Assembly: GCF_010015585.1 (NCBI RefSeq)
Contig: NW_022985078.1
Coordinates: 248,001-312,000, forward strand
From: Eremomyces bilateralis CBS 781.70
Lineage: Eukaryota > Ascomycota > Dothideomycetes > Eremomycetales > Eremomycetaceae
Direction of reading: 5' to 3'
DNA: 64,000 nucleotides
Every line of letters begins with the position of its first letter. Position 1 is the first letter of the stretch. A program made the position numbers and the translations under genes. Shown here piece after piece: positions 3,181 to 42,261 of this stretch. The notes under the pieces were generated by a model that worked only from the letters and a program-made list of their open reading frames with translations, ran no database searches and was not told where the DNA came from.

Positions 3181-5507
3181 ATGGAATCACGTTCAGTGGC
3201 AGCCCTTGGCTCGCCCGGTGCACCTCTGCATCCTCTCTCCCCAGAACGCGTAAATGCCGCCCGGACGCCGCAGAGCACGATGACGAAAATGCCTCAATCA
3301 CCATCTGCTCCCGAGTTTGGGAAGCCTGCGTTCACAGACGCCGTGCAGAACGGATCACCGACCCGTGGTTCGCCCCTTCGATCCCATCGCCGGAACGACT
3401 CTGAGGCGAGCGTGCACGGAATGGTTGCACGATTCAATGCATTGGAGATACGCGATCACCAAGAACTGCATCGGAGAGATGAACTGGCGTTGAAACGCTC
3501 GGAGATGGCGCGCGACATGGCGGAGAAGGAGGTCGACAGGTTTAGGTCTGAATGTGGGGAGCTGGATGACGAAGTACGGAGACTCAGAGAAGAGATGCGA
3601 CAGATGAAGAAGGACGTGGAAGAAGGCAAGGATAGGGAACGAAGAGTGATGAAACGGTTAGATGTTGTCATGGTCAGCTTGAATGTACCTGTCCGTTTAT
3701 ACATCGATACTGACTTCAGTTGTAGGAAGATGCACATCGTGGGAAGGAAACGACCGGCCGCACCACCGCGCTATATGAGAAAGAGATTCGCAAGGCACGA
3801 AAAGAAGCATTCAAATCATCCTCCGCCCTCGTCAAGCTCCAAGAAGAGCTCAAAGCCTCGCGAAGTTCGCTGCGGGCATGCCAAACGAACCTCGAAACGG
3901 AACGGGGTAAGGCGTCCCGTCGCGAACAAGAGGCATTCACCGCGCAGTACCAACTCGTTGGCGTCCAAGAGGAGCTACAAAAGATGAGAGAGCGTATAAA
4001 GGTTGTGGAGGAAGAGCGAGATGCGCTCAAGACGAGCCTGCAAGGAGAGGAGATCTCGCGAATCGCAGCGGAAGGTCGTATCGCGTTGCCAACCGGCGCA
4101 GACGATGATGAAGAGTTCGCCTCGCCCGTCAAATCTCCACGCAAAATGCAAAGACTGGATGAAGAGAACAAGGAGAACCTCATGCCGGCCCGTAAAGTCG
4201 AGTTAAAGTTGCTGACTGAGCAATTGGAGCGCGAAACGAGGCTTCGCGCACGAGCGGAGGAACAGGCTGAATTCATGAAGATTGAGTGTCAGTTCGAATG
4301 TTGTTCCTGTCGAATTGCAGAACGGACTGGCTCTCGATATGTCCACGACGATAGCTTTGAGGCGGACATGCAGCGTATTCGCGAACAAGCTTCCGCCTCC
4401 TTACCTATTGAGCCGGAAGACCATGAGATGGAAGATACAACGTTTCCGGCCCCACAGGAGCCCCAGGAGCCCCAGGAGCCCCAGGAACACGAACGCCAGG
4501 AGCAGGAACGCCAGGAGCAGGAACGCCAGGAGCAGGAACGTCAGGAGCAGGAACGGCAGGAGCAGGAACGTCAGGAGCAGGAACGCCAGGAGCAGGAACG
4601 TCAGGAGCACGAACGTCAGGAGCACGAACGCCAGGAGCACGAACGTCAGGAGCACGAACGCCAGGAGCACGAACGTCAGGAGCAGGCACGTCAGGAGCAA
4701 GGACGCCAGGAGCAGGTACGTCAGGAACAGATTGGGGTCCGACCGGAGACTCCCATCAAAGTGGAAGAGCAGGAAGAGCATGAATCACGCGTAGAGGAGA
4801 CGGAGGAGATCTCCTTCTCACCTTCAACCGGAACATTCCGTCGCGTCTCTCTCCTTGCTCAACCCGTAGATGAACCCCGCGGCGACGTGGAAGAGAAACC
4901 AGAGGATGAGCCTACACCTCGGAAACCCTCACCTTCTGTCCCGCGAGCGAGCAGCGTCCTCCCCTACGAGGACACATTCTTCTCCATCCCCGATGACTCC
5001 ACTATACGCGCCGGCACGCCCCTCGACTTAGGCAACGACCTCCCCCCCTCCTCAGACAGCGTATTCACCGACGATACCGACGCGTCCACCCCCAAAGCCA
5101 GCCACCACCGCGTCACATCTCCTCCCCCCCCGTCAACCCCCGCAGACCGCGCGATCCGCACCGTCACCACCACGACCACCATCCCCATCCACTTCTCCCC
5201 CGGCGACGCCCTCCGTACCAACTTCATCCCCCCTAGCATCCCCCGCCCCGCGACCGTCGCCCACGTCTCTACCACGATGATGACGCCCGCGAAGAGCGAC
5301 GCCCTGCCACCGCTGACACCGTCGGCGGTCACCCCCGGCGCCCTGCGACCGGATGGCACGATCGATCGGGAGGCCGCGCTGGAGATGATTCGGCAGAGGC
5401 GGGGGCGCGCGCGGAGCCTGGCGATGGGGAGTGCGACGCCGCGGCAGCCGATGGCAGGGATGGGGGAGCGAAGGGATATAAGTGCGCCGATGAAGCTTCA
5501 TGGATGA
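3181..5507 (+). CDS. Coiled-coil protein with E-Q-E-R-Q minisatellite
   Basis: Two exons, 3181-3672 and 3726-5507, joined by a 53-nt intron with a CTGAC branch site. The product is about 757 residues. Order of parts: Ser/Pro-rich head; long coiled coil (about 85-340) starting MVARFNALEIRDHQELHRRD and including ALYEKEIRKARKEAF and YQLVGVQEEL; a short cysteine motif CQFECCSCRIAER then YVHDD; a repeat region of about 16 copies of a five-residue E-[QH]-E-R-Q unit; then a disordered Pro/Ser/Thr-rich tail. I do not recognise a named family. The coiled coil plus the CCSCRIAER motif look like a conserved Pezizomycotina cytoskeletal or scaffold protein, which is inference. An upstream in-frame ATG at 3079 would add 34 residues. 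I chose 3181 because the extra segment looks like untranslated leader. Confidence 0.75.
4455..4730 (+). repeat. Coding minisatellite (15-bp unit)
   Basis: About four 9-bp units (CAGGAGCCC, encoding P-Q-E) are followed by about sixteen 15-bp units of the type CAGGAGCAGGAACGC, with C/T and G/C variants changing Q to H. All units keep the reading frame of the host coiled-coil gene. Near-identity between units indicates recent expansion or homogenisation, so copy number is probably variable between strains. Confidence 0.9.
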
Positions 5508-11394: not shown

Positions 11395-12911
11395 GTTCCA
11401 CTTGGTATGGAAAATTGCTTTGCTCTAGGCGAATAGAGAAGTGGGTATTCCTGATCACCTAGAGCGGAGTCTTGGATTCTGTGACACTGTTTCTCCGAGA
11501 TATCTCTTAGAACCTCACAGAAGCGAGGGAAGATTGAACTGGGCTAGGAGAGGTAGGAGACATTCGGCAATGAGGCCACAATAGTAGCGTCCTTGAATTG
11601 CATAGAAATTTAAATAAGAAATATACTGCAAATATGAGATTCAATGACTTGAATAGAAAGCGAAGGCTGAACAATGGTGAATGGTGTAAGTCCGCTCGAA
11701 CCTTTCCCCATTCGATGATGAACCTTTAGAACGGAACCCCATTCCAAATGCCGATAGATTCACCCAAGCTCTCTAGTTTCACAAACATCTGTTTTTCCTA
11801 CATTATTGCAATCGACTTCACCAACGGTTGCGTGTCCAGGCCGTCATGCGGCGTCGCAATGTGGCCCATGTGAAGAGTGAGGCAATTCAATACGACGACA
11901 CTGTCTCAAGAAGCGGATCAACGGATATCATCTCCCGGGACGGCCGCGAAGGCGTCCAATGTAAGGCACCCCCACGATGGTGGCACCGAGCCTTCTAGCG
12001 ACAGCTTTGCTTCCATTGTGCTTCGTACGACGCGTCGACCAACCATTGCGCATGGAAGAAGTGATGAGAAGGTGTCATCTTTCTTGTCACGAAGAGCCGG
12101 AAGGAGCTGTACCGATATGGTGGGACGATCCCGTCTGGATCGTTGATCAGCACTCAGCTGGGCTGAATAGCGAGTAGGAGATGCAGGTGGCGTTGTGATG
12201 AAGCGCGGAATGCCTTGAAATCGTCAACGACGATCCTCGGAAACGCACAAGCCACCGTCCACTTGAACCTCCATGGATCCGCGAGATTTTCCAACGCTTC
12301 CACGACTTTACTTTCATCAACTCCTATTTCCTTTCCCGATCTCAAACCACTATTGCTACGCGTAGTAAGTCTTATCGATTATCGAATATATAAGGACGTG
12401 CCAGCCGTTGTGGTCAATGTGTCCGTAAACCCTCCCAGCGTCTGGCATCAACCTGGCGTCAGGCACATGGCAGATGTCCCCCGTATCCCAAACGCAACGT
12501 TGGATCCAACAGAGGTTTGATATTAGATGATCTTCCTTGCTTCAGATATCGTCCTTATGTAACAAGCTATGAAACACAACCTTAACGTCTCGCCTTCCTT
12601 TCTGGCCCACGCGTCCATCCACCGGAGCCATCGAACATCTGAGCGCAAGCGGACTATCATCGAATCCCGATTCATTCTAACTTCCCCCTTGCTATGTCGT
12701 ATTTGATAGTTGGGTTCGAACACATTTGATGGAGTCCTGTTCCCTGGAGTATGAGCCACAGTTGACAAACGGAGCCCTACCCCCCCGACAAACGGAGCCC
12801 TACCCCCCCTTACCATCAACTGGAGGGAGATCAGGGATGGGCTGCCGTTTTGTCAACGGGGATTTGGTACTTCTATTCTTCTGTCAGAGCTCTTCCTCTT
12901 GCAGCCCATCG
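11395..12911. other. Intergenic, no gene seen; short tandem duplication
   Basis: About 1.5 kb without a supportable gene. Positions about 12763-12808 contain two adjacent copies of a unit of about 22 bp (GACAAACGGAGCCC followed by TACCCCCC). Several open frames of 60-100 codons exist, but none resembles a family. Confidence 0.5.
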
Positions 12912-13189
12912 TTATTGGCTCGACTTTTCGACGTTGTCAATTTCCCTTGATTCGTAAAGGCCCGTTGTGGCTGGCGATTGACTTGCCACTGAGGTACCAG
13001 CTGGGCTTGCTTCTCTCGATGCACCGGAGAACGCATAGTTCGAAGATTGATCGCTGCTAAGGATTTCCAGAGAACTCGCAGGACCCATGGCCTGTGTTTG
13101 TGGAGTGGTGGGCCGAGCTGCTAGATGCGAGCTGCGTTCATCTGCTTTCTGCGATTGAGTTGACTCGACGTTCACTACGCGGTGGTCAA

Positions 13190-15437
13190 TCACCTCTCAT
13201 TCTCGGATGATCGAACCCACTTATTTTGCCTCTGATCAGCTGCTCGTTTGGCTGGTATGGGGTCACGGAGCTGGGCGCTTTTAATCGTATTGGCAAAGTC
13301 CACTTCGATAGAGGGTTTCTCAAGATCTGTTGCAGTGAGTGACATTAATACCTTACATTTTAAAGAATTTCCAAGTATTGGAGCAACGTACCAGTTGGGA
13401 ATGAACCCCCACTTGTCTTAAACCTTCGCAAGGTCTTGTTGCAGCTTCTACATGTCTCCAATTTGTCCTGCTGTCTCTTTATCTTCTCTAGAGTCTCGGT
13501 TTCTCCAACAAGACGATTGCAATCTTCGGTGGACATGGTAGCCACCATTTCGGCAGAAAGGATATCCTCGAGACCTTCAAGCAAACAGTTCTCGATTCCG
13601 AGCACGATTATATTGTCAATAAAAATCTTGACTTTGATCTCGCATTAGACTTCCAAGCTGTCAATGATATCAGCAGCTCCATTCACCGTGGGGGAAGACT
13701 GCGACGTGGGTCTGTTAGATTTTAGTGCTGCTAGCTTGTTGAGATATTCCGGGGCGCAGGTCATGGGAATTCCGCTGATGTGCGGCTTCAAAAGCATTCT
13801 ACATATCCGATCCAACTCTTGCTTCCTTGCCTCCAATGCAGGTCCAATGATTTCTTCCATCACTAGACCCGCAACACGCTTGTCTGTCAAGTACACAAGA
13901 GCTTGGTCGAAGAATTGTTGCACATATAGCCACGCTTCATTCTGTTGAATGTTGACAATGTTCGGCCATTTCTGCACCTCAGCTTGGTAGAGATCCGTAA
14001 TCAGAGCGGCGTTTGGGAAGCCTGGCAGGTTAATCCCAGCATTGGCAGCCTCCAGAGTCTGAACGCGTGCTACTTCTTGAGCCCAAAGAGTCCAATTGGC
14101 AGGATGGCCTTCAGGTAGCACTTCGACGATTCGCATTCTCTTCCCTTGAGTCAACATGTGGTTCTCAAACGCTTGGTTCTGGTGAAAAATCTGGGCACGA
14201 ATCCGTCGCTTATCTCGATTTTGGCCTTCACCACCTTTGAAGAATCCATGCGTATAGACCCCATTCTTGGCAGACTGTATTAAGGCTTGGGGTCACTTGC
14301 TTTTCAAAACAGATACCGGCTCTGTTGTTCATTGGAAACACGCAGCTCACCAAGTTCTCGAAGCTCTTCGCACGTTACGCTGCCCCGGTCGATTTGGGTC
14401 ATGAGCTCTGGCAATGCTGCGCTAACGGCATCGCGGATAGCCTTACTCAATCGCGTCCTCAATGACTTGACACCCTTGGGGTTCTCATCCAGATCCACCC
14501 ATCGATCTTGGCTGAAGAAGTCGGTCTCGCTTTCATCTCGTTGTTCAATTGACTAGTCTTTCTTGGTTGAAGGGCGGTTCTTGAGGACGTGCCAGCCGTA
14601 TCTACTTGATTGTTAGATACCAAGCCTCGAAAGCTTTGATTATACTCCGCCGTCAAACATACCCGAAAATGCAGAGAGGATCTTCATTCGCGAGGATCTT
14701 GAAAACTCTGTCCTCCATCTCAGGCCCAGGGTTCAAGTCTGGCTTTGTAACGACGCCGAGGGTTCTGGAACCTTTCGGATCATATTCCTTAATCACGTCG
14801 AGGATCAAATTCAACTCCGGGTCTAAGTTGCCGTGGATTACTGCCATGATAATGGCGCGCTCATTCTTGAGGTATATGTCAAGAAGCTGCAATAGGATAT
14901 CCTTGAATGTCGGGTCTCTCCTCTTGTCACCATGTGCATAGATGATACCCGGCAAGTCGATCAGCGTTAAATGTGGCTGATTGGGTCCGCGTACTTCGAT
15001 GCGTAGGACGTCATCGTAGTAAGCCCTGGATGTCCCGTTAGAGGCAGTTTTGAGCGCATTCTGCGCTTCCTCAATGATACCCGAAATCGCATCTAGGCCC
15101 GTAGCCGCTTTGAACTTTTCGAAAAGTGGCTCAACGAGCTTCGGCACATTGCTCTCTGAACCAGGAACGATGGAAACTTTGGTAGTTGAAGATGAGTCTC
15201 TACGGAGGACCAGCTCCGTTGCCCAGCGTGTGCCTGTGCCTTCTGCAGCTGGAAACCGAAAGCCAGATATTGCTTCAGGAACGGAACTCTTTCCAGCAGA
15301 TTAGTCGCCGCACACAACCAGCCGGGGAAATGCAAAATACTTGTCAAGACGGTGAGGGGAATGAAACACACTGGGAGCGAGCCAACTCGGCTGGGAACTG
15401 GAATGCCGATTAGCTCAGAGACCATACTGAGCAGCAT
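13190..15437 (-). pseudogene. Decayed dynamin-like GTPase gene
   Basis: Clear dynamin/Mx-like GTPase sequence spread over broken frames. The P-loop region reads VVCGD, a stop (TAA at 15301-15303), then SAGKSSVPEAISG. The usual family sequence is GDQSAGKSS, so a Gln codon has probably become TAA. Further on come TRWATELVL, the G3 motif LIDLPGI, the G4 motif TKPD, a plausible intron near 14597-14670, YGWHVLKN, another in-frame stop (TAG at 14553-14555), the middle/stalk region, a frame change plus TGA near 14280-14310, LLKPHISGIPMTC, a TAA at about 13645-13647, and a GED-like segment (NCLLEGLEDILS). With at least four disabling changes it is a pseudogene. An intact relative lies 3 kb to the right on the same strand, with a transposon between them. 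A Ser/Thr-rich open frame at 12912-13193 may be its former tail. Confidence 0.85.
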
Positions 15438-15545
15438 ACGGGACTCTAAGCTTTCAATGCTTGTTAATGCACATTTATATTCATTTCTGGGAGACTTTGG
15501 ACGATGTGTGGGACTTTGAAAGGGAAGCAGTTGAGATAGAGAAAC

Positions 15546-15610: not shown

Positions 15611-17080
15611 TCAGGGGCTCCAGCGGAGGACAAAAATAGCGGGACTCATTTCAGGCCTTGGCAGACCACCACCAAAATCTCTATTCACCTTCCATTTAGA
15701 TAATCAATTAATATGGCTCCCCAAACCCGTGCAGCAGCTCTATTAGCTGAAGATCGTAGAAAAAGGCCTCGAGAACATATTACAACACCTACAAAAGCGA
15801 AAATTAAGGGTGCTATTGAGTATATTAACGATACAAGACGTATCGATGGTTTTAATCGGACTTACACTCACGCCGATATCTTCCGCCGTTATGGTGTATC
15901 CAAAACCAGAGGATATGAGTACGCCAAAGCGGAAACAGAGCGGAGGGAACGGAATATCCCTAATCGACGCGAAACAAGAGGTCGACCGCCTAAAATCACC
16001 GACGAAGATATCCAACGGATGACCGATATCCTCGAGAGCGCTGACTGCGCCGAAGAACGAGCTATTGATTGGGATACACTCGCGCTTGAGACCGGACTCG
16101 ATGTTTCTAGCCGAACAATTCGTCGAGCTATGGAAAAGCATGGATACTTCAAATGCGTCGCGTGTCGGAAGCCGTACTGCAACAAACAGCTGGCCGAGAT
16201 GCGATTGAACCGCGCGAAGCTTTGGCTCGATAAGTATCCGACTCCGGATCACTGGAAATATATCAGATTTAGCGACGAAGTCCATTTCGGGATGGGGCCT
16301 CAAGGGAAGCTCGTTATTATCCGGAAACGCGGCGAACGGTACTGTCCCAAGTGTATCCAACGCGTGGAGGAATGGGACGACGCAGAGAAGCTCAAAGTCC
16401 ACGCATGGGCCGCGGTGGGCTACGACTTCAAGTCCCCCTTACCTTTTACGTGATACCGACGAATAAAAACGGGAAGATGACGCAGGACGTCTATCTCAAG
16501 GAGATACTCCAGACGGAAGTTCAGGAATGGGTCGACCGTGGAGATTTCTTCGTTTTAGAGGAGGATCAAGACTCAGGCCACGCACCGCCGCGGTCAAGGA
16601 AAAAAGGCAATGCCGTACAACAATGGAAAGAGCAAAATGGCGTACATTCGTACTTTAATTGCGCAGGATCGCCGGATCTTGCGATCATCGAGGACTGTTG
16701 GCAACCGACGAAGCAATACGTACGGAAATATCGCCATTTCAATCCCGAAGAGACTCGTGAATTAGCGATCGAGGCCTGGGGAGAGCTTAAACAGGAATGG
16801 ATTAATAAACGGGTACTTTCTATGCCTGATCGACTTCGAAAGGTGATCGAGGCTGGTGGTCAACTGATTGGTTATGGGGGCGGATTGGCGGGCTAACCGC
16901 CGCATTTTTTACCTATAGACTGTTTGTATAAGACTTAATAACGTCACCTTCCATTTTGACGTGGATTGACTGCGTTATTGTGAATATATCTGTTTTTATA
17001 TAGAAATCTGTACGGGGTGGTGGCGCCAAGCCCAATGTGAGTCCCGCTATTTTTGTCCTCCGCGGGGGAGGGGGTGTTTC
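15611..17080 (+). mobile_element. Tc1/mariner-type DNA transposon with inverted ends
   Basis: About 1.45 kb. The ends carry inverted repeats. The left copy (about 15615-15673) and right copy (about 17016-17075) share a 26-bp core, beginning GCGGAGGACAAAAATAGC at 15623, then more weakly TTGGC and CCACCACC. The outer edges are diverged, so the exact limits and a TA target duplication could not be fixed. The single gene inside is the transposase described separately. The element separates the dynamin pseudogene from its intact relative. Confidence 0.85.
15713..16896 (+). pseudogene. Tc1/mariner-type transposase, one frameshift
   Basis: The ATG at 15713 opens a basic N-terminus, then helix-turn-helix segments (HADIFRRYGVSKTRGYEYAK; ETRGRPPKITDEDI), then a DDE domain with FSDEVHFGMG (first Asp), EEDQDSGHA (second Asp) and DLAIIEDCWQPTK (acidic third residue). 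By my count about 41 residues separate the second Asp from the Glu, longer than the 34 of classical Tc1. The first frame ends at 16453 and the second runs to 16896. They meet at a run of five C (16434-16438), where one missing C explains the shift. No other break was seen, so decay is recent or the shift is a sequencing error. Confidence 0.85.
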
Positions 17081-17675: not shown

Positions 17676-20658
17676 CTATGAGACGGGCCCTTTTCCGAAT
17701 CCGCCAAACGGGTGACTACCGCTCGTCTCAAAGCCTGACTGTGAAGGTTTAGTGCCTGTAGTAGGGACAGGGGGCGTCCCTAGACCTCCGAAATTTTTGC
17801 TCTGGCCAAATAGTGACGTAGTTCGTGGTTCTGGGGGTGTAGTGCTTGCGCCATTGCGGGCCGTCGATCCATGTGGCAAATGGGCGAATAAGCTTGGGAT
17901 ACTCCGTCCGGGCGTTAACGGGCCAGCAGAGGCGCTCGTGCTGCCAACGGCGCCTGCCGCACCGCCAGTTGGCTGGGCCGAGTTTCTTCTTGAATAGTCA
18001 GCCAATTTCAACTCTTCGAAGGAATAGTCTTCGTGTGGAAAGATGGATGTTATGCTGTCAAAAATCTCGGTCCGACCCCTAGAATCCTTTTCGCTCAGGA
18101 AGCCGGGATGAGATACCACTTTGTTATTTAGAGTCTGGCTTGAAGGAGAAACAGACTGGCTAGGAGAGGTGTTAAACGGGGTCTAGTACTCCCGTATGAG
18201 TATGACTACCTACTTGGGTGGTGCGATTTTGGGAAAAGCGAAGGCTTGGTTGCCGGAAGTGGAAGGTTCGCCTATGATCCTTAGGGTACTTAATGGCGAC
18301 ACAGCGGACACTAAAGGAGTAGTGGCAGCCGGGCTGATATTATTTGCAGGTACATTCGGGCCTCCGCCGGGAGACTGTCCTGTATTTCTAGGACCTTGTT
18401 CAGGATAGCGGTTAGTGGTATTTCTCGTTCGCTCAGAACGTTTGACTAACCAGCTAGTCCCCCATGCTGCCCACCAACCCTATTACCAGCAGTGTTTGTC
18501 TGTTGGATGCTAGAAGAATCGGGTGGATATAGGCCTGTCATAGATCAATAACATGGTCGAATCAACGGCTGCGGAAATAAAACCTACCTTGGTCCTTCAG
18601 TTTTTCTGCAGATATCATCCTTTTCAACAAGGCTTGAGCAGCTTTCAAGGCTACTAAGGAATTGCTTGCTGAACGTCGAGCCTCTCCAATATCTTCGTCT
18701 TCCCCGGCAAGTCTCCCTAGCGTGTCATTATCCATGGCAGCCACAGTCGCAAGAGGAAGGGTATCTTCCAACTGGTGTAAGAGGCAGCTCTCGATGGCGA
18801 GAACGGCTACATTGTCAACCAGTATTCTCAATTTGATTTTATGGTATGTTGCCAGGCCGCTCAAAATAAAGTTCGCATAATGTTTCTCAGGGGCTTCCTC
18901 AGGTGAACCTCTGGCATCTCCGCCACCCAGCTCATCAGCGAGTACCCGACACTGTTTTTCATAGTCTGGGTCATATGTGATCGGGTGGCCTGCTTCATGA
19001 GGCTTCAACAACAACGAGCACATCTCTTGAAGTTCATGGTGGCGGGTCTCCAGCACATCGGATAGAATCTCTTGCATGATGAGATGTGCTGTTCGCTCAT
19101 CTGTAGCCGCTTGCAATGCCGCATAGAGGAATCCCTTGACATAGTTGAAAGTTGCCTCTGCATGCTTCAGTGTGACGTCTCGCCAATTCCCTTTGACCTC
19201 TTCACGAAAAAGGATCCCTAGGAGTTCGGAGTTTTGGAATCCTGGCAAGCTTTGTCCACGATATTTGGATGCTGTTTGTGAGACTGCATCCAGCGCTTCT
19301 GCTGTCCGACCGTTCTTGAACAGTGCTAGGACAGTACCCCTTTCGGGTTTTTGTACCGCCATTTCGTTGCTGTATTGTCCATTTCGGTCGTGGATATTCG
19401 CGCGCAATGTTGTCTTAATTCCCTGCCGTTGAGTGCTGAAAAATGGATCGCTGAAGTCGCCCTTTTTCCCACAGATGATGAGCTCTCGGAATTTCGTCAC
19501 AGTGTCCACCAGATACTTCCTCTGCTGCTCAGGCGTGGCTCTTTCTGGTCCAAATTTTCGAATCTGGAGCGAAATGTCGTTGATCCGTGTTTCAACGCCC
19601 TTGGTGAGTTGAGGCAACACATTTCCAATGCGCTTGAAGAGAATGGCACTGAGACGACAGCGAAGGGAACGTACACCCCAAAGGTTCGGATCCGCTCCAC
19701 TCCAAATGCCTTTGCGGAAGAACTCACGTTCACAAGCGTCGCGTTCGACGTCGGTAGTATTTAGCGTGGACTGGTCGCGATTCTTCAGTACGACCCAACC
19801 ATACTCAAATCCTCCATACTTGGAGTGCCGGTTCTTTGCAAGCTCGACAGCCACAGATTCTAGATCCGACCCGGGTTCGACACGGTCGGGCTTTGTGAGA
19901 ATGGCAAAGGTCCTCTTTCGTTCCTTGTCATATTGGTTGACAAAGTCCAATACCCTTTGGTTGGATGTATATTGATGAGTTTCAAGAACAGGCAATATAA
20001 TTGCGCTTTCGTTGCCGAGATATTTGGTGGCTATCCTTTTTGCTGCGTTCACGTCTTCGCTATCGCCTTCATGAGTGATACCAGGAAGATCGACCAGTGT
20101 GAGATGAGGTAGGTTGGGACCACAGACTTCGATTCGAAGGGTGTCCTCTATAATGAAGCCGTGATCGCTGTCTCGATGGGCCAGGTGGAGCACGGCTTGT
20201 TCTTCTGCTAGCAATTTTGCGAGATGGTCCATATCCGTACAAGTGGTCGCACGTTTTGTGAAAGCTTTCAAGGCGCCGGATGTTGCACATTCCGGATCTG
20301 CTTGGATCACAGAGACATGGACGACATGGCTTTCGGCCCTCTTTAGGATGAGCTCTGTGGCCCATCTTGTACAGCCTGTCTCCCTAATTGGGAAACGAAA
20401 GCGGGAGATGGCTTCCAAAACAGAACTCTTGCCAGCAGACTGAGCTCCGCAAATGATGAGCTGTGGCATAGGGACATGATTGCATATTCCTTGCTGGCGG
20501 ACTTCGTGGATCAGGTTAAGCAGTTGTTGCTGATCCCTTTGAAGCTCTAACATAGCATTATGGTCCATTTGAGTGTCTAGACCTGATAGGTCCACGGTCT
20601 CGATGCACTCTCTATGTGCCACCTCAGCCACCATGATGAGTTGACGTGTCATTGGCAT
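17676..20658 (-). CDS. Dynamin-like GTPase with GLEBS-like and FG nucleoporin-type tail
   Basis: Four exons: 18588-20658, 18451-18534, 18214-18394 and 17676-18159, giving 939 residues. The exon-3 acceptor could be 15 nt further in. Residues 71-78 are the P-loop (AQSAGKSS), with DLPG near 190 and TKPD near 255, followed by the stalk (LLKPHEAGHPITYDPDYE) and a GED near 620-690. The frame can be extended upstream only without an ATG, so I start at 20658. After the GED comes a Ser/Pro/Gly-rich linker. Residues about 812-834 then read FDSITSIFPHEDYSFEEL and KLADY, closely matching the Nup98/Nup116 GLEBS motif (ITAMKEYESKSLEELRLEDY) that binds Rae1/Gle2. The last 100 residues contain SLFGQ, NFGGLG and HPFGGFG, as in FG nucleoporins. 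Family knowledge gives membrane remodelling by GTP-driven assembly. Nuclear pore targeting is inference. The intact frame contrasts with the pseudogene at 13-15 kb. Confidence 0.85.
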
Positions 20659-21170: not shown

Positions 21171-22908
21171 ATGCACAGCAACCTCTCCCCCGAGCCGTCA
21201 GTGGTTACCATACAGGCGAACGGCGAGCCGCCGCTCAAGAAGCCTAAACTCCATGGACGAGCATTCTACGAAAACTTAGGCAGCCCGAAACTGATTCTGG
21301 CACCTATGGTGGACCAATCCGAGTTTGTACGTCTGATATCCCAAACAGATCGTCTTCCTGTTACTTATATATCACTAGGCATGGCGCATGCTCTCCCGCT
21401 CGTTCTTCCCTCCCGAACTACGCAGCAGCCTCCTCGCGTACTCGCCGATGCTCCATTCCCGGCTCTTCGTGAAGGAAAGCAACTACCGAGCGTCGAGCTT
21501 CCAGCCGCTGAAGACCGCGATCCCCGAGCCGTCGGAAGGCAATTCGCCGCCGAACCCGGACGAATGGCACCTGGATGGCAACCCGAAGTTTGATCGGCCG
21601 CTGTTCGTCCAGTTCTGCTCGAACGAGCCGGACGATTTCCTCGGCGCCGCGCGGTATATTCAGCGGTACTGCGATGCAGTGGACCTGAACTTGGGGTGTC
21701 CGCAAGGGATCGCGAAGCGGGGGAACTACGGCGCGTTCTTGCAGGAGGACTGGGAGAAGATCCACGCGCTGATCAGCGCGCTGCATAAGGATCTGGATAT
21801 ACCCGTGACGGCGAAGTTCCGGGCGCAAGAAACCAAAGAGAAGACGCTGGAGTATGCGAAGATGATCTTGAGCGCGGGAGCAAGCATTATCACCGTCCAT
21901 GGGAGGCAGAGAGAGCAGAAAGGACACAATACTGGACTAGCGGATTGGTCGATCATCAAGTACCTGCGCGACAACCTCCCACCGGAGACCGTGATCTTCG
22001 CGAACGGCAATATCCTCCAATACCAGGACATCGCTCGATGCTTGGAGGCGACCGGTGCCGACGGCGTCATGAGTGCCGAAGGAAATCTATCGGACCCTTC
22101 CATCTTCGCACCCCCTCCAGTGGGCGACGATAATCCCGAGTACTGGCGCGGCGTCGACGGCGAAGGCGGCTGGCGCGTCGACGCCGTATTCCGTCGCTAT
22201 ATGGACATCATCCACCACTCTGTCCTCGGGGTCGCCCCTCCCCCCCGCGCCCCGCTCTTCGATCCCCGCGCTCCCTCCTCCCCCCAATCCACCCCGTCGA
22301 CCGCCTCCCCCGGCGCGGAAACGGAACCCTCCGAACCTCCCCTAAAAAAACAGCGCCGCACCGACCCACCCGCGAAACCCAAAAAGCAAAAACGCTGCCA
22401 CGAGCCGAACTTGGTCGCCATGCGCTCCCACCTCTTCAGCCTCCTCCGCGCACTCGTCTCCGAACACCACGACATCCGCAACGCCCTCGCCCGCACCCAA
22501 ACCGCCGACGTCGACAGCTACGAGCGCGCCCTGCAAATGGTCGAGAAGGCCGTCCGCCAGGGCCTCGTCGACTATGAGGCCTCCCACGCGGCCGCGCGCA
22601 CCAACGGTGCCCAACCACCCCCGGCGAACGCCGACGCGCCTATCGACGACTCCACTGAGAGCTCCCGCGGCGCGATCGAGCGGTGCGACCGGCCGTGGTG
22701 GATCTGCCAGCCGTATATTCGGCCGCTGCCGCATGAGGCGGTGGAGAAAGGGTCGTTGACGTTAAGTAAGAAGGAGAAGAAGCGGCTGGCGGAGCAGGGG
22801 CAAGTGGTTGCGAATGGCGCGGAGAACGGTGCATGCGACGTGCAGGCGCCGACGGAAAAAATCGCGGTGGACGAGGTTGTCCAGCCGGCGGTGGCGGCGA
22901 CTGGGTGA
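21171..22908 (+). CDS. dus1: tRNA-dihydrouridine(16/17) synthase Dus1
   Basis: Two exons, 21171-21326 and 21379-22908 (52-nt intron), 561 residues. The flavoenzyme reduces uridines 16/17 in the D-loop of cytoplasmic tRNAs using NADPH. Visible motifs are the N-terminal FMN-site signature LILAPMVDQSEFAWR (formed across the splice junction), VQFCSNEPDDFL, DLNLGCPQGIAKRGNYGAFL with the catalytic Cys, VTAKFR, ITVHGR and FANGNI followed later by GVMSAEG. The C-terminal half carries a low-complexity insert (about 340-390, Pro/Ser-rich, then a basic QRRTDPPAKPKKQKR stretch that may act as a nuclear signal). It ends in a Lys-rich helix and a disordered tail. Longer than bacterial Dus (about 330) but typical of fungal Dus1. 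Confidence 0.95.
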
Positions 22909-28955: not shown

Positions 28956-31511
28956 ATGTCTCCCACCCCCTCCCCCCCCTCCCCGCCGACCCCTTCACCA
29001 AAGACCAATGGACCACCCTCCTCGCCCTCGGCGACACCATCGTCGCCTCCCTCGAGCCCGCCTCGCCCGCCAACGCAGCCTCCACCACCGTGCTCCCCAT
29101 CCCGCAGGACGAATACAGCGCGTCTGTGGCGACGGCGAAGCGGTTCGCGGCGGCGGACGCGGACCCAAAAAATATTGAGGCGTGGATGCGGGAGAAGCCG
29201 TCAGAGAATGAGGAGTTGAAACTACAGCTGTGGAGGTTTTTGGGGAGTTATACGCCGGAGGATTTGAGGAAGCAATTTAAGTTGGTGTTGACATTGTTGA
29301 AGTATGGTAGCCCCTATCGATCTCCTCAGCCCTTGCCCTGGAACAGGCCCTTGGATGGAGTGTGCAGATTCCAGCCTTGAAACTGCGCGACTTGACGGTT
29401 TCCATATTTTTTCCATGGCTGAGTACTAATATCCTAAAGCTACCGTGCCGGCACCCTCGTCCTGGGTGGCTACGCCACCTCCTTCGCCGACCTCCCCCTC
29501 TCTTCCCGCCACGCCATCCTCCTCTCCTGGCAGAAATCCCGGATCCCCATGCTACGCCAGCTCCTGAAGAGCATGAGTATGATCTTCAAGCAGCTTGCGG
29601 CCAAGACGTCGCCCTCCCTCTACAACCTCATCGGATTCCCACGCATCCCGGTCCACGGCGAGCCGGTCCCCGGGTTCGATTTCAAGTTCATGCAGTTTCC
29701 GCCAGTCACAGGGGTGTATGTGGGAAAAGGGCCGGCGCCGGAGCCCGAGGAGGTTTTGGAGACGGATGTGGTGGTCGTGGGGAGTGGATGCGGTGGAGGT
29801 GTGTCGGCGAAGAATATTGCGGAAATGGGGTTGAGGGTTATCGTCACGGAGAAGTGGTACCATTGGCCGTCTGAGCATATGCCGATGAATGAGACCGATG
29901 GGATGGTCCATATGTTTATGGACGGAGGTGGCATCGTTGGTAAGTCCCTCTCAATTCCATCCGCTACTCCTGCTGACCTATCCAGCCGACGACTCCGATC
30001 TCATTGTCCTTGCTGGTGCCACGTGGGGTGGAGGCGGCACCATCAACTGGTCCGCCTCTCTCCAAACCCAAGGCTACGTCCGCAAAGAATGGGCCGAGAA
30101 AGATAAACTCCCCTTCTTCACCAGCGCCGCCTTCCAAACCTCCCTCGACCGCATCTGCGAGCGCATGGGCGTCTCCGACAAATTCATCGAGCACAACCAC
30201 GCCAACCGCGCCGTCCTCGACGGCGCCCGCAAACTCGGCTGGGCACACAAACCCGTCCCACAGAACACTGCCGGCAAGCAACACTACTGCGGCTACTGCA
30301 CTCTCGGCTGTGGCGCTTGCGTGAAGCAAGGCCCTGCTAACTCCTTCCTCCCGGACGCCGCCAACGCCGGCGCGCAGTTCATCGAGGGCTTCGACGCGCG
30401 GGAGATCGTATTCGAGAAGGCGCTCAAAAACGGCAAGCGCGTCGTGTCGGGCGTGCGCGGCGTGTGGACCTCACGCGACGAGAACGGCGGCGTCGCTGGC
30501 GCCCAGCGCACTGTCCGCAAGGTGTTCATCAAGGCGAAGCGCGTCATCGTCTCCGCCGGCACCATGCAGTCGCCGCTGCTCCTCCTCCGCTCCGGGCTGA
30601 AGAACAAGAACATCGGGCGCCACCTCAAAGCGCACCCGGTCAATGTCGTCGGGTTGATTTACGACCAGGAAACCCGCCCGTGGGAAGGTGGGATCCTCAC
30701 CTCGGTGGTCAACGAGTTCGAGAACCTCGACGGGCACGGCCACGGCGCGAAGATCGAAACCGCCGTCATGCTCCCGTCCACGTTCCTTACCTTCCCCGTG
30801 TGGCGCGACGCTGTCGACTGGAAGCGCCTCGCCACCAAAACCCGCCACGCCGCCTCCATGTTCGCCATGGCGCGCGACATCGGCGAGGGCTATGTGTATC
30901 CCGACCCCGTCGACGGCCGCACCCGCTTCCACTACCACGTCCACCCCCGCGACCGTGCCCACATCCTCGAAGGCCTCTGCGGCATCATCAAACTCGCCTA
31001 CATCACTGGCGCCCGCGAAATCATCCCCGGCATCCCCAGCATCCCCCCCTTCGTCCGCGCCGGGCCCATCCCCGCCTCCTCATCCTCCTCAACGTACAAC
31101 AACCCGTATCCCGCGCCCCGCGACCCCGCGCACCCGCCGCCGCCGGCGCATCCGGAATCCGACTACCCACACGCCCCCTCGACGCTCGACGACGCCGGCG
31201 TCAACGACCCCGCGCTGCTCGCGTACCTCGCGCTCATCCGCAAGACGGGGCTGTCGTACCCCGACGTGCAGTTCGTGAGCGCGCATCAGATGGGGACGTG
31301 CCGCATGGGGGCGTCGCCGAACGTGAGCGTAGTGGATCCGACAGGGGCAGTGTGGGGCACCGACGGGGTGTATGTGGCGGACGCGAGCGTGTTTCCAAGC
31401 GCGAGCGGGGTGAATCCAATGGTGACGAATATGGCGATTAGTGATTGGGTGAGTCGGGGAGTGGGGAGGGGTTTGGGGGGGGTGGAAAGGAGGGGGCAGG
31501 CGAAGTTGTAG
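28956..31511 (+). CDS. Long-chain fatty alcohol oxidase (GMC family)
   Basis: Exons about 28956-29301, 29440-29939 and 29986-31511 (introns 138 and 46 nt, both GT-AG). The product is about 790 residues, the usual size for the FAO family. N-terminal domain: DPFTKDQWTTLLALGDTIV. FAD-binding Rossmann motif: VVVGSGCGGGVSAKNIAEMG. Flavin contact: WGGGGTINWSASLQTQ. A Cys-rich motif follows (YCGYCTLGCGACVKQG), then a GMC C-terminus with SAHQMGTCRMG and a late GVYVADASVFPSASGVNPM, including the catalytic His/Asn region. The enzyme oxidises long-chain alcohols to aldehydes with O2, giving H2O2, in peroxisome or ER membranes during alkane and fatty-alcohol use. Oddity: the only nearby ATG (28956) is one base out of frame with DPFTKDQW. 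The two frames meet in a run of eight C at 28972-28979, so either the tract is miscounted or the true start exon lies upstream. Confidence 0.85.
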
Positions 31512-33134: not shown

Positions 33135-33935
33135 TGGTGATGCGGTGCGCTTGGGGTGAGCTGGGGAATTTATATATGGACGAAAGTGCTACGCTATGAT
33201 ACAATACCATAGTACGATAACTTGATTGGAGACCTCACACTATCATGAGGTTGGTTGGTCTTTATGCCAGATTCTCTGAGCTGACGGGTTTTACCCATTT
33301 TACTGATCTTCTTCCGTGTCTCACAAACTATAGGAAACATACAAAATATTAATATAGCATCACTCTTCTAGAGAATATGGATGCTTAAGCACCATGTCAT
33401 TGGCGGATCATATTCAATGATGAAAACAGAGATTGGGAAATCCCGTCCGGAGTAAGTTGGTATTATGTCACAGGAAAACCTGTGCTCTTTTCAGGTGTTT
33501 CAACAAGATCTACCTACTATCCCCTGCCAAAATCCGGAGATTTTTCATTTGACATGCGCGTTTTATAATTATATGAGGTCGAAGTAGGCAAGCCGAGCGG
33601 ATGAGGCCGGAAATCTTTGGATAGCTTGTGTAACCTCTGTGCTGTCAACAGTTATGGATACACAGTAAGACAGTATCCGTAGTTACAAGGATACAGTTCA
33701 AACCTCTCCCAATTCGGCCACCGCTTCTCATTGAGTCAGACGCTAAAAGGTGTAGTTAACCAGTCGCACGTGTGGAAAGATGCAGGGACAAATGGTTCAA
33801 TTCATGTGGATTTGACATCATTGAGGCGACCAGACATAAGCCCCGTTAAATATTAACGAGGCAGTAGGGTGATTTCCACTGGTGTGAGCATCTTTCTTTC
33901 CATATACTGCGAGGTTTCCCGGCAGCATATCGACA
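33135..33935. promoter_or_regulatory. Upstream region of ABC transporter
   Basis: About 800 bp with no gene. It contains the 3' end of the Kelch gene and the promoter of the transporter. Confidence 0.45.
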
Positions 33936-36900
33936 ATGATGCCGATTCAGCTCGTTATTGCAAGCATTTCCTTTTCACTTGTGGCTCTTTTTATAGCGAT
34001 ACCTTTCGTCCGTAGATTCGTCCGACCATTTGTCAAATCAGAACGTTCCAAAGCTAGCATTACTTCGGACTATGAAGATGCCGATGGCAAAGCTACCGCC
34101 GAATCCATTAAACGGTATTCAACGGTTTTACAACACATCATACTGGGAATTACTGTTACTATACTGGTTGCAGTCTCTCTTGCGAAGGCCATAACCGCCA
34201 CTTTGAATGCGAGTATAAACTCTTTCCTGGTGGCAGAATGGCTCACATTTGGCATCTCGATCCTCCTTCTTATTGGATTCTGCAATATCGTCTTCGAGAG
34301 ACATCCCGTGGTACGCTTCAACCATGCAGCAGTTGAGGCAATTGCGTTCGTCGTGCTCTTCGCAATCGATATATTCAACATCTATGGGACCTTTGTTCTA
34401 GATACCTCGAAACGTCATGAAGGCCCCGACAAGCTCTCTACTGTGGTGGTGTGGACATACACTGCGGTGCATCTCCTCGGCATATTCGCCTGCATCACCT
34501 ATCCAAGGCGCCCACATGTCTATCGAGATGGACACACCGTCGATGAGCAATGGACAGTTTCGATTCTCTATCGAATTACCCACTCGTGGTCCGAGTCCGT
34601 CCTTCGGCTACCGGCGGAGGGTAAACGACTCTCCTTCGACATATTACCAGTGTTGGATCATCACACGCGGGCACGAGATCTCTATGACGCATTTTACCAA
34701 ATCAAGGATAGCAAGTCTCTTGCCATGCATCTAATTAGGTCGCATTCCGTCGCGTTCTCTCTACAATACGCCTATACCTTGCTCGACGCTCTTCTCATGT
34801 TTTCACCACAGTACGCTTTGTATAGATTGATAAAAACACTAGAGAAGAGAGAAGCTGGGATAAACTCTACCAAGGAAGCGACTTTCTGGGCCGCCATGCT
34901 TGGCTTGTTTGCGATTGTAGCCAATGTTGTGAATATCCAACTGTGGTTCATCTCCTTTAATCGACTAAATACGCCAATCCGGGCCCAAATCATTGCACTA
35001 GTGTTCGGCAAGTCGCTGAGGAAAAGGGACATCAAATCAACTGGTGCAAAAAACACAGATGCAGAGAGCGACGACGATACAAAAGAAATGGGCGCGAAAG
35101 AAGAGAAGGTTATGGCCAGCAGACAATCCGTCATCAATTTGGTTGGCGTCGATGTTTCCCGTATCGCCGACTTCGCATCGCTCAACTTGTTTTTTCCAGG
35201 CACCATCTTTCGTTTGGCCATATCATTCTATTTCCTCCTATCGTTAATCGGGTGGCAGGCGCTTCTTGCGGGCTTGGTGGCCTTGGTCTTACTCTCGCCA
35301 TTGAATGCATACACCGCAAAGAAATACGCCGATGCTCAGGGCCAGCTGATGACCCATCGAGACCGAAAGGTTGCGATCGTCAATGAAGCCTTGAACGGGA
35401 TCAGGCAAATCAAGTTCTCGGCCACTGAAGGGCAGTGGTACCGCAGAATCCGAGAATCAAGAGAAAGCGAACTGCGTGCACAATGGAGCGTGTTTGTGTT
35501 TCATTGTCTCCTGAATTTCTGTTGGATCATGGGCCCAGTACTACTCTCGGCAGCGTCGATTTCAGTATACGCACTGCAACATGACAGTCTCCCGCCCTCG
35601 GTTGCTTTTACATCCATTTCGATTATGTCTAGCATCGAAATATCGCTTGCGGTCATCCCAGAGATGATCACGCACCTTCTGGACTGCGTTGTCAGTCTGA
35701 AGCGGCTTAGTGAATACCTGGAATCCGCGGAAAAGAGAGACGTTGCAATCCCAGGCGACTCGATCGAGATGAGGGGTGCGACAATTACCTGGCCTGCGGA
35801 TGAAGTCGACCCAAATACGTTCAGCCTAAAAGATGTGTCACTAAAGTTCCCGAACGAACAGCTCTCTGTTATATCTGGACCAACCGGTTCCGGAAAGAGC
35901 CTGATGCTCACAGCCATACAAGGAGAGGCCGAGGTGCTTAAGGGCAATCTAGTTCTCCCACCCCGCCTCCCTTATTACGAAAGATTCGACCAGAAAGCAA
36001 ATAAGAGCAATTGGATACTACCGAACTCTATGGCATTTGTTAGTCAAGAAGCATGGCTAGAGAACATGTCTTTCCGAGACAATGTGCTATTTGGACTCCC
36101 CTTCGACGAGCAAAGGTATAACAAAGTAGTGAAATCTTGTGCTCTCGAGAAGGATATTTCCTTCTTAATTGACGGCGACCAGACTGAGATTGGAAGCTCT
36201 GGAATCAATCTTTCGGGAGGTCAAAAGTGGCGTCTCAGCTTAGCTAGAGCGCTGTATTCCCGTGCCGGCATCCTTCTCCTCGACGATATCTTCGCAGCGG
36301 TTGACGCTACCACCGGAAGATACTTGCTTAATGAAGCACTCACTGGGGAGCTGGTGCAAGGAAGAACTAGGATCCTTGCGACTCATCATGTGTCAATACT
36401 TCATGGCAAGATGGCGTATGAAGTTGTTCTTGGGGACGGAATAATCAAGCGACATGGTGCAACTCCTGTGGTGTCCGACACTGAGACTCCACTCGATACT
36501 CATAGCAACGAATTCATTGACGAACCTTACCCCGATAACGCTGGGAAGCTTGGAGGCCAACGGAAGGAGAGCGTCGTGGACCATGATCTGATACTAGTCA
36601 AGAGCCACCAGTCAGAACTTCCGGATGATCCTCATAATCTAGTGGACTTGGATGCCGCGCCGCGGAAGTTCGTTGAAGAAGAGATGCGTGAAGTTGGGCA
36701 CGTCAAATGGCGGGTGTATCTCACATACTTGCGCGCAAATGGGGGGTTCTGGTTCTGGACACTACTCCTCAGTACATTTATTTTCTTTGAAGTCATGCTG
36801 CTTACACGGGTAAGTCTTTTGACCAAGTACTATTCAGATCCATCACTAACTACCATATTAATAGTCCTGGATCCTCCGTCTCTGGACCAAAAGCGCAGCA

Positions 36901-38658
36901 CAATCTGAGGATCACATACCTGATCTGCTGCTCCAAGGACAGAATCGGCAAAGGCAAACCAAGGGTATCGATCCCAATACCCTTTTCTACCTCTACCTGT
37001 ACGTCGGCGTTTCCTTCGCTACTGGCTTCGAAGGCGTGATACGGTACCTGACCGTGTACATTGGCTCTATCCGAGCCAGTCGCACCATGTTCGAAAGCAT
37101 GATATCTAATATCTTGTACGCAAAACTGCGCTGGCTGGATACTGTCCCTGTCGGCCGCATCCTTAACCGTTTCTCTGCCGACTTCAAAGTTGTTGACTCT
37201 ATGCTCGCCGTCGCGGCCTCATTCGGGTTATACAACTTTATGCTTGTTGTTGGCGTCATCACGGCGGGTGCCTTCATATCGCCGATCTTCCTTCTATTTG
37301 CCGTCGCGCTGCTTATCCTCTGCTTACGTTACGCACTGTACTACATCGTCGGCGCTCGCGAAGTGAGACGCCTCGAAAGCATCGCTAAGTCTCCCATCTT
37401 CGAACTCTTCGGCTCGACCCTCGCCGGCATCGCCACGATTCGTACGTACGACATGACCCCCAGGTTCATGACCACCATGAATGCCCGCATCGACGACTAC
37501 GTAAAGACACACTGGTACCAGCAGCTGCTTAACCGTTGGCTTACGTTCCGACTCTCCCTCACCGGCGCCGCCTTCTCCCTACTCGTCTCTGGATTAATAG
37601 TGTCCATCCACAACATCGACGCCGCGCTCGCCGGGTTTGCACTGGGATTCACGGTCCAGTACAGCGAAGCTGTCACTACGATGCTCCGGCAGGTCGTTAG
37701 CATCGAGCTCGGCATGAACGCCGCAGAACGCATCGTCGAATACTCCGAACTCGACACGGAGCCCGAAACGGGCATGGACGTGCCGGCATCGTGGCCGTCC
37801 AACGGCGCGCTCGAGGTCGACAACCTTAGCGTCTCATACGCGGACGATCTACCCGACTCGCTGCGGGATGTCTCGTTCCACGTTGAGGCGAGGGAGCGCG
37901 TCGGAGTCGTAGGCCGCACCGGGGCAGGGAAAAGTTCGCTGGCCCTTGCGCTGTTCCGCTTCCTTGAGGCGAAGACTGGGACGATCGCGATCGACGGCAT
38001 CGACATTAGCAAGGTGAAGCTGCACGACCTTCGCAGCCGGCTCGCGATCATCCCGCAAGACCCGGTCCTGTTCAGTGGGACGGTCCGGTCGAACCTCGAT
38101 CCGTTCGACGAGCACGAAGACTGGGAGCTGCGAGACGCGCTTGAGCGGGTGCATCTCATCGGCAGCAGCGGCATCGACACGCCCGTCGCCCCGGACCCAT
38201 CCTCATCCTCATCCTCCGCCCTCTCCGGCACCAGCACGCCACGCACCCCCATTAACACCAACGTCTTCTACTCCGTCACCTCCCCGATCTCCGAATCTGG
38301 GCACAACCTCTCCCAAGGGCAACGCCAACTCCTCTGCCTCGCGCGGGCGCTCCTGTCGCGGCCGTCGATCCTGGTGCTAGACGAGGCGACAAGCGCGGTG
38401 GACACGGCGACGGACGCGAAGATCCAAAAGAGCATCCGAGAGAACTTCCAGGGGTGCACGCTGCTTGTGATCGCGCATCGGTTGAGCACGGTGGCAGATT
38501 TCGATCGCATCTTGGTGATGAGTGAGGGGCGGAGCGTGGAATTTGGAAGGCCGGCGGAGTTGTTGGGGAGGGGGGAGGAAGGGGTGTTTAGGGGGCTGGT
38601 GGAGGAGAGTGGGGATCGAGAGGTGTTGAAGGGGATGATTTTGGGGAAGGGAAAATGA
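33936..38658 (+). CDS. ABCC-type (MRP-like) full ABC transporter
   Basis: Exons 33936-36809 and 36865-38658 (55-nt intron, GTAAGT donor), 1555 residues. Order of parts: an N-terminal TMD0 of about five helices (residues 1-190), TMD1 (about 280-580), NBD1 with Walker A GPTGSGKS near 647 and LSGGQ near 756, a linker, TMD2 (about 930-1240), and NBD2 with Walker A GRTGAGKSS near 1307, QDPVLFSGTVRSNLDPF, and LSQGQ near 1439. NBD1 has ILLLDDIFAAVD, with Asp in place of the catalytic Glu, whereas NBD2 has VLDEATSAVD. This asymmetric degenerate first ATP site is characteristic of the ABCC family. Such pumps export conjugates, drugs or metabolites from the plasma or vacuolar membrane. The substrate cannot be told. 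A Ser-rich loop (about 1390-1420) is inserted in NBD2. Confidence 0.95.
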
Positions 38659-40349: not shown

Positions 40350-42261
40350 TCAAACATCCAAGGTCCTTCCAGCCGGTCGAACATGTGTCCCATGGAAGCC
40401 AAAACCAACACATCTACCCTCCCCCAACTCCGCCCTCCCCACCTCCGTCATCGTCTTCGCATCCAACACCAACAAATAACTATACCCTTTAATCCCATCC
40501 AGCACGACACTCAACAACACCCCATCATCCTCCGCCGTGCCTTCCGGATCCGCGATGAAGATCGCTTCGCCGGGCGAGTGCGCGTACTGCGACCAGTACA
40601 GCGGCTTCGCGTCGGCCGCGTCGGCGGCAGATGGGTGGGTGTACGCGTAGGTATCCAGCTTGACCAGGCCGTCCACGAACGAGGGACTGATGCCGCGGTC
40701 GCAGATGCCGTAGATGTACCGGTGTGGCCGGGCCAGGTACTTAGGGTTGATAGTGGGGAGCTCCATGCTTGCGGTGAACGGGACTTCAAAGACGACTCGG
40801 CCTTTCAGTGTCTTGGGTGAAGAGGAGGAGGGAAGGATGCTCTTGGATCGGGTATGGCCGTTGGCATGACCGTTCTGTAGCGCCGGCTGCGGGATGTCTG
40901 GAAGGCGGTAGCGGCGATACTTGGGCCGGGCGATGTTGCCGGCTTTTCCGGCGTATTTCAATGCACCGGGTTCGGATGAGATCAAGTTCTCGTAGTAGAA
41001 CCGTTTGAGGACATCGATGGAATCGAATGCGGGGATCTCGGCGATAATATCAGTCTGTCCAGGATTGGTCTTTGACGGTTCTTCCCAGGCGTTGGTTGCA
41101 TGGAAGGCGTAGAAAGCGGGCGTGTCATAGACCGAGACCAAACCGCGACCATGCTTCCGATCGACGATGTACCACTTTGCTGGGTATCTTGGATTCAGTG
41201 GTGAGATGGAGTCAAGAACGTTCTTATTCCAGAGAATCGACGCGCCTCTTGCGGAGAGGTGCGAGTTCCAGACGCAGAGCACGACGTAGTTCTGGGTCAG
41301 GAAAAGGGAGTGGATGTACGCTGGAGTGGCTTTGAACTTAGCGAGAATATCGGTCTTGCCAGTCGTAGCCGATACTCGGAATATCCTATACGTCGGATCG
41401 GAGCTGAGTTCGAGGTTGTAGTTGAAGATGTCCCCCGTATCAGGGTCCGACTTTGCGTGCGCGCTGGAAAGCTGCCCAATGAGCTCTGGGTGGAGGCTGG
41501 TTTGTATTGCAACACCCGCCGGTTCGAGCGTCTCGGGGTTGAGATGCTGGTAGGCGTTTCTATCTGTTTTCGTGACCAGAGTCGAAATTCCTGACGCGTG
41601 GTTCTTTGAGGTTTCAGCTTGATCGGGACCAAAGGGCCCGAAGCCTGGCATATTGGCTGAGATGGTAACCCCGATATTGCTCCCCTCACGTCCTCCCTGA
41701 GTTGATGAGGGAGGAGCTGCAGTGAATACACTCATGAGCTTCTTGAAATAGCTTTGGCAAGGATCTTGCTTCTGTCCGAAGGTGAACCCCTCGGTGCTCC
41801 CAGTCTTGCGGATGGTTTCTATCAGCTGATCGACGATGAACCTTGAGCTATTTAGGTGTCAGCAAGCTTTCTTCCATCCAAGGATGATCTAATACCTGTA
41901 GGACACCTTCACCTGATCGGAATCGTTCTCGATCTTGAACTTGTGGACCATGGATAATCCATCGAACCAATGCGAGAGCTTGAACAGCCCCTTTTCCGTC
42001 TCGATCTCGTGAGCTCCAGGGCCAGTCCGGAGCAGGGTCCCGATAGCATAGCTCGGAATATGGCCGGTAACTTTGAGCTTGATGGGATCTTTTTGTTCGA
42101 ATTGCGGCTGGGCCTGTTTGACTGAGTAAGCACCTATCAAATCATTGCATTTGTAGGTCGACTTCTCCAAGCATAACTGGACTGAACAACGGCCTTCATA
42201 AACTCACCCCTTTCGCGTTTGGCCACTCCTCGTACTTTTCCGGCTGTGTTTCTGTCGCCAT
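40350..42261 (-). CDS. Carotenoid cleavage oxygenase
   Basis: Last exon 40350-41847, middle exon ending at 41896, first exon about 42208-42261 with start MATETQPEKYEEWPNAKG. The junction of exons 1 and 2 is uncertain: an AAG acceptor giving STYKCNDLIGAYSV keeps frame. About 600 residues. Family features: GHIPSYAIGTLLRTGPGAHE, FKLSHWFDGLSMVHKF, and four iron-binding His regions, SAHAKSDP, AYIHSLFL, YAFHATNAWEE and the C-terminal GFGFHGTHV. Fungal members cleave torulene or beta-carotene-type substrates with a non-haem Fe(II) centre. The closest named relatives by memory are the CarT/CAO-2 torulene oxygenases, but no carotenoid genes lie nearby. The last residues (RPAGRTLDV) lie against a transposon relic and may not be original. 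Confidence 0.88.

Follow-up and report, generated by a model that had tools for sequence, protein, structure and literature searches.

The window analyzed here (the whole 64,000-nt stretch of DNA) contains a locus, at positions 17676 to 20658, that raises the question of why a dynamin-class GTPase should end in a tail resembling part of a nucleoporin: which protein such a tail would bind, and where in the cell the GTPase would act. As judged from the DNA letters, one open frame on the minus strand joins a dynamin-class GTPase to a GLEBS-like core. The answer that we put forward, at a probability of roughly 0.55, is that the locus encodes an Mx-like dynamin with a tail bearing the C-terminal arm of a GLEBS motif, that this tail would dock on Gle2/Rae1, and that the GTPase would thus be recruited to nuclear pores.

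The first-pass annotation had carried the GTPase and GED portion into the tail by three in-frame splices, and we found its coordinates, strand, frame and introns to be correct. The gene is read as follows.

17676-20658, minus strand: whole gene, four exons, 939 amino acids (by splicing and translation, and by an unguided intron search)
18588-20658, minus strand: exon 1, encoding GTPase, stalk and GED; 690 complete codons
18535-18587, minus strand: intron 1, 53 nt, GT..AG
18451-18534, minus strand: exon 2, in which the tail begins
18395-18450, minus strand: intron 2, 56 nt, GT..AG, containing a CTAAC site
18214-18394, minus strand: exon 3, tail; resembles the tail of the adjoining broken paralogue
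18160-18213, minus strand: intron 3, 54 nt, GT..AG
17676-18159, minus strand: exon 4, encoding the GLEBS core and FG part, with the stop codon

The unguided search used a script that allowed at most three introns of 45-100 nt, running from GTNNGT to [ACT]AG, and kept the longest reading past residue 600; that longest reading contained exactly the three introns listed above. When the DNA past exon 1 was subjected to mononucleotide shuffling, 1 of 200 shuffles could be read equally far (median 105 amino acids, versus 339 for the reading obtained). Upstream, the frame stays open to 20859 and contains no ATG ahead of the one at 20658; the stop codon lies at 17678-17676. We rejected the possibility that exon 4 is a separate gene, as its ORF has no Met. 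The minus-strand reading from 20658 to 17676 is probably a gene, and short introns and the gene content suggest a fungal one. Retention of a single intron would yield a protein of 698 (intron 1), 719 (intron 2) or 779 amino acids (intron 3), and all three products stop ahead of the GLEBS-like motif; with intron 1 retained, the stop comes eight residues further on.

Exon 1 encodes three regions that were recognized by Pfam.

19891-20457, minus strand: Dynamin_N GTPase domain, residues 68-256 (Pfam E 1.6e-25)
18949-19806, minus strand: Dynamin_M stalk region, residues 285-570 (Pfam E 3.8e-16)
18619-18888, minus strand: GED, residues 591-680 (Pfam E 5e-5)

The P-loop GAQSAGKSS, DLPG and TKPD are all present in the GTPase domain, which shares one chain with the stalk (middle) region and the GED, the combination by which a protein is placed in the dynamin superfamily. 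Since the P-loop, DLPG and TKPD motifs are there and intact, the enzyme looks active. No PH domain was found among the 9 Pfam families matched by the whole protein, which agrees with an Mx or MxF identity. In a sequence search of the PDB, 44 sequences fell under E 0.01, with MxA at the top (76.6 bits) and Drp1 next (74.2); Vps1 entries scored 59-62 bits, mitochondrial dynamin 55, dynamin-1 entries 43-48 and MGM1 30, and the weakest of the 44 matches was an unrelated collagen adhesin. The Vps1 and mitochondrial dynamin chains in the PDB presumably come from an ascomycete. We rejected identity with Dnm1, Vps1 or Mgm1, as these scores lie far under the hundreds of bits that we would expect for orthologues of solved chains. 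Beyond Dnm1, Vps1 and Mgm1, the fungal dynamin class that remains is MxF, which varies in copy number (as set out in passages of PMC11789081). With the Vps1, Dnm1 and Mgm1 scores too low and MxF the class left, the GTPase is most likely Mx-like (MxF) by elimination, the lead of MxA over Drp1 being small.

The tail, which is C-terminal and looks disordered, was examined for the motif that would name a partner. The sequence of interest, SITSIFPHEDYSFEELKLADY, is encoded at 18056-17994 on the minus strand, and the parts of the tail that bear on its interpretation are these.

17994-18065, minus strand: C-terminal arm of a putative GLEBS motif of the Nup98/Nup116 type, residues 811-834 (IFDSITSIFPHEDYSFEELKLADY)
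18066-18152, minus strand: expected site of the N-terminal GLEBS arm, residues 782-810; unrecognizable alone
17679-17816, minus strand: short FG segment, with SLFGQ, NFGG and PFGGFG

We compared the tail with the GLEBS peptide of human Nup98, which agrees letter for letter with PDB chains such as 3mmy_B. The ungapped alignment contains 10 identities in 20 positions (BLASTP E 8e-4 for this single pair), and its score was matched by 7, 9 and 5 of 20000 shuffled tails in three runs, with a Gumbel p of ~7e-4. Among 1821 ORFs of at least 20 amino acids from the six frames of the window, the exon-4 ORF ranked first against human Nup98 at 48, followed by a transposase ORF (15704, plus strand) at 45. 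Taken alone, the likeness to human Nup98 therefore appears to be modestly above chance.

For yeast Nup116 we used residues 110-166, in letters that we assume to be correct. The Nup116 GLEBS is described in part of PMC3783196 as a 57-residue stretch with its glutamate pair at positions 154/155, a register that the letters used here fit. Residues 782-834 of the predicted protein could be aligned to 52 of the 57 Nup116 residues; this alignment has 17 identities and a single gap of one residue, its score of 68 was reached by none of 20000 shuffles, and the next of the 1821 ORFs scored 41. This 53-residue alignment had suggested a full two-arm GLEBS, a proposal that we withdrew once the arms were scored apart. 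The C-terminal arm alone gave 11 identities in 24 positions and a score of 61 (none of 20000 shuffles; Gumbel p 1.4e-8), versus a score of 18 for the N-terminal arm alone, which 4866 of 5000 shuffles equaled. Because of that last result the GLEBS claim rests on the C-terminal arm, and the N-terminal arm would be either diverged or absent. An HMM built from human Nup98 and this Nup116 sequence was also run against a set made up of the 1821 ORFs, 3000 shuffles and the tail; it detected the exon-4 ORF at E 1.5e-4 and the next ORF at 0.17, with only the C-terminal arm aligned. Pfam matched no family to the 249-aa tail. In a phmmer search of the PDB with the 62-aa region, carried to E 10, there was no Nup98 and one unrelated match (E 0.17), and no yeast Nup116 chain appeared among the PDB matches to the GLEBS queries.

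The glutamate pair in the tail, residues 827-828 of the 939-aa protein, corresponds to E201/E202 of Nup98 and to E154/E155 of Nup116. In Nup98, E201/E202 form salt bridges with R216 and R172 of Rae1, and change of the yeast Nup116 pair E154/E155 to basic residues reportedly impaired association with Gle2 (both in passages of PMC3783196). The earlier statement that the tail matches the GLEBS motif bound by Rae1/Gle2 can be retained for the C-terminal arm, on the Nup98 and Nup116 scores and the glutamate pair, the N-terminal arm being unrecognizable.

The 105 amino acids past the motif are rich in G, S, P, T and A and contain 10 charged residues and 4 FG dipeptides, versus 1.1 FG expected; at least 4 were present in 207 of 20000 shuffles, an excess that is suggestive only. 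In FG domains of Nup98 the median density is 9 FG per 100 residues (data given in part of PMC4283134). We rejected the idea that the segment is an FG barrier domain, for which 4 FG in 105 amino acids are too few, and at most these motifs would provide a few weak contacts. The Nucleoporin2 autoproteolytic domain was absent from the Pfam matches of the whole protein. The Nup98-like order that had been proposed, GLEBS and then FG, was observed as an order, with an FG part that is short and sparse.

GLEBS motifs are bound both by Rae1/Gle2 and by Bub3 (in portions of PMC3783196 and PMC9203020). The main rival to Gle2/Rae1 as partner is Bub3, a relative of Rae1/Gle2, for which Bub1, BubR1 and BuGZ offer precedents; on that account the core would place the GTPase in mitotic or chromatin complexes, away from the pore. 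We regard this as unlikely overall. Human Bub1, in letters taken from an excerpt of PMC4337726, matched DYSFEELKLADYSRR over 15 residues with a score of 42, which was reached by 0 and 1 of 20000 shuffles, so that by this measure Bub1 does at least as well as human Nup98 (0 and 1, versus 7, 9 and 5). Text searches of the literature for motif strings brought up a single paper, on Bub1/BubR1. The Bub1 core FSFEELRAQKY is nearly identical to the core of the tail, and a core of the form SFEE(L/I)(R/K) is common to the tail and to Bub1, BubR1 and BuGZ (Bub1 and BubR1 letters from the same excerpt of PMC4337726). The tail also agrees at 8 of 9 positions with the ELM pattern for Bub3 (as it is given in part of PMC11917139), D at position 1 being the exception; the strict pattern is matched nowhere in the six-frame translation of the window, and this site is matched if D is allowed at position 1. 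In Neurospora, BuGZ binds Bub3 via its GLEBS (stated in a passage of PMC9203020).

The match to BubR1, by comparison, was weak (score 30, 166 of 20000 shuffles; 31 and 1388 of 20000 for a longer piece). Several other observations count against Bub3. The match to Nup116 is longer and higher than that to Bub1 (61 over 24 residues, versus 42 over 15); SIT ahead of the core and DY behind it are common to the tail and Nup98 and are absent from Bub1 and BubR1; and FG motifs lie downstream of the core. On the strength of this longer and higher match, the SIT and DY flanks and the FG motifs, we favor Gle2/Rae1 over Bub3 as the predicted partner; Bub3, or both proteins, may be bound instead.

It is rather improbable, in our estimation, that the motif is a chance short likeness in a fast-changing disordered tail and that no such binding occurs. 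What speaks for chance is the modest human Nup98 score, nearly equaled by that of another ORF (45 versus 48), together with the lack of a Pfam match, or of a PDB match to Nup98, for the tail, and the fact that a single GLEBS arm is recognizable. It is opposed by the Nup116 score of the C-terminal arm, by the kept glutamate pair, by the position of the motif in a coding exon and by the FG motifs downstream, as well as by a core pattern, devised post hoc, whose chance of occurrence is ~6e-10 per position. No relatives were confirmed by tblastn in viral and prokaryotic collections, in which hardly any fungi are to be expected: pattern scans of these collections matched 0, 28, 16, 4, 6 and 233 stretches, none of which passed tblastn. 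Least probable is the proposal that the 698-aa form from intron-1 retention does the work, the tailed form being a minor product, or that the gene is decaying like its neighbor. In favor of this, the retention product keeps GTPase, stalk and GED whole and the adjoining paralogue is broken; against it stand an uninterrupted frame of 939 codons, intact GTPase motifs and the unguided recovery of the three introns.

Under the favored reading, that of an Mx-like dynamin docking on Gle2/Rae1, the C-terminal tail would present the GLEBS C-terminal arm followed by its few FG motifs. The GLEBS core would sit atop the beta-propeller of Gle2/Rae1 in the fashion of Nup98, and Gle2/Rae1, either free or exchanging with Nup98, would recruit the GTPase to nuclear pores, where the FG motifs may contribute weak extra contacts. 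Concentrated at the pore, the GTPase could assemble via its stalk in a GTP-driven manner. With less assurance, we suggest that the assembled GTPase would guard or remodel the pore, most plausibly as a defense factor of the Mx type; defense against nuclear or mRNA-export parasites, or else remodeling of the pore or nuclear envelope, is speculative. A more specific version, which we offer as a tentative possibility, is that an Mx-class defense GTPase docks on the mRNA-export factor Gle2/Rae1 via a GLEBS captured from a nucleoporin, and that a pore-bound Mx protein evolved in fungi independently of MxB. If that were so, mRNA export or nuclear entry might be guarded against parasites in these cells. 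Rae1 and Nup98 are targeted by viral proteins, for example VSV M and influenza NS1 (mentioned in part of PMC3783196), and a host GTPase placed on the same handle that viruses use would be of interest for defense. As the tail names a likely partner, it would also offer a cheap test of where a fungal Mx-like protein acts.

A literature search by titles and abstract beginnings, covering mainly open-access papers, turned up no GLEBS-bearing dynamin among the papers listed, in agreement with the earlier remark that no dynamin class could be named that has such a tail. The protein resembles MxF1/MxF2 in being a dynamin-superfamily GTPase apart from Dnm1, Vps1 and Mgm1, with a copy number that varies among fungi; fungal Mx-like proteins are termed uncharacterized and have a high turnover (passages of PMC11789081, Langley et al. 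2025). It may differ from them in its putative motif, the term GLEBS having 0 occurrences in the main text of PMC11789081. Human MxB/MX2 is a precedent for an Mx GTPase associated with nuclear pores. The first-pass annotation was right that MxB reaches the pore in a different way: FG nucleoporins interact with its N-terminus, two-hybrid screening with this part of MX2 yielded NUP358, NUP214, NUP98 and NUPL2 among the partners, and co-precipitation was positive for NUP98 and a piece of NUP214 and negative for NUP358 (sections of PMC6264145). MxB employs a region at its N-terminus that contains an arginine triplet, whereas the present protein would employ a C-terminal GLEBS core for Gle2/Rae1; if docking at the pore is true, Mx proteins would have arrived at it more than once, via different motifs. 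Nup98 and yeast Nup116 share with the tail the GLEBS C-terminal arm with its glutamate pair, and FG motifs after it; in contrast to them, the protein described here has an unrecognizable N-terminal arm and a GTPase body, and it lacks both a long FG domain and a Nucleoporin2 domain. Tetrahymena Drp6 is likewise a dynamin-related protein that is recruited to the nuclear envelope, but its recruitment is by a lipid-binding domain, which binds cardiolipin (in part of PMC7946437).

The region next to the gene contains a second dynamin-like gene and a transposon.

12900-15480, minus strand: second dynamin-like gene, broken (by alignment of two open pieces)
15620-17066: Tc1-type transposon, between the two dynamin-like genes (by terminal inverted repeats and transposase)

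Over the two aligned open pieces, the paralogue is 41% and 33% identical to the intact gene; it is broken by a stop in the P-loop and, further on, by more stops and by changes of frame. One of the three frames gives the paralogue a tail resembling residues 735-808 of the intact protein (score 61, 4 of 2000 shuffles); the scores of the two remaining frames are reached by 926 and 147 of 2000 shuffles. Judging by this resemblance, the duplication appears to be younger than the tail. The likeness ends in a stop just ahead of the place of the GLEBS motif; a GLEBS relic in the paralogue was considered and not adopted. We rejected repeat-induced point mutation of the paralogue: its TA/AT index is 0.57 and its (CA+TG)/(AC+GT) index 1.40, versus 0.61 and 1.18 for the window, and by the cut-offs assumed for these indices, neither indicates the process. 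A structure prediction for exon 1, in which the two paralogue pieces served as the alignment, was discarded (mean pLDDT 37.9, pTM 0.24). A 23-nt tandem repeat in two perfect copies lies downstream of the broken gene, at 12764-12809.

The inverted repeats of the transposon are 51 nt long and 78% identical (15620-15670 and 17016-17066). The first transposase frame, 15704-16453 on the plus strand, matches HTH_Tnp_Tc3_2, and the transposase seems to continue in a second, overlapping frame at 16273-16896 on the same strand. Turnover of this kind, with a broken paralogue and a transposon, fits the MxF picture and does not imply a role in defense.

Elsewhere in the window, 10 ORFs were searched with Pfam, 2 of which had no match. 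The following were identified.

21382-22905, plus strand: dihydrouridine synthase (Pfam)
29889-31508, plus strand: GMC oxidoreductase (Pfam)
33888-36905, plus strand: ABC transporter (Pfam)
40353-41858, minus strand: RPE65 family (Pfam)
46163-49699, minus strand: tRNase Z (Pfam)
50471-51586, minus strand: Fringe-like (Pfam)
53393-55015, plus strand: NPHP3_N/NACHT-type P-loop ATPase (NPHP3_N, 5.8e-30)

ATPases of the NPHP3_N/NACHT kind are frequent among fungal NLR-like immune genes. Two further repeats were observed: a 15-nt unit present 17 times at 4473-4730, plus strand, which lies within a long ORF and encodes a run of RQEQE/RQEHE, and a cluster of tandem repeats with a period of 23 nt at 62487-62812.
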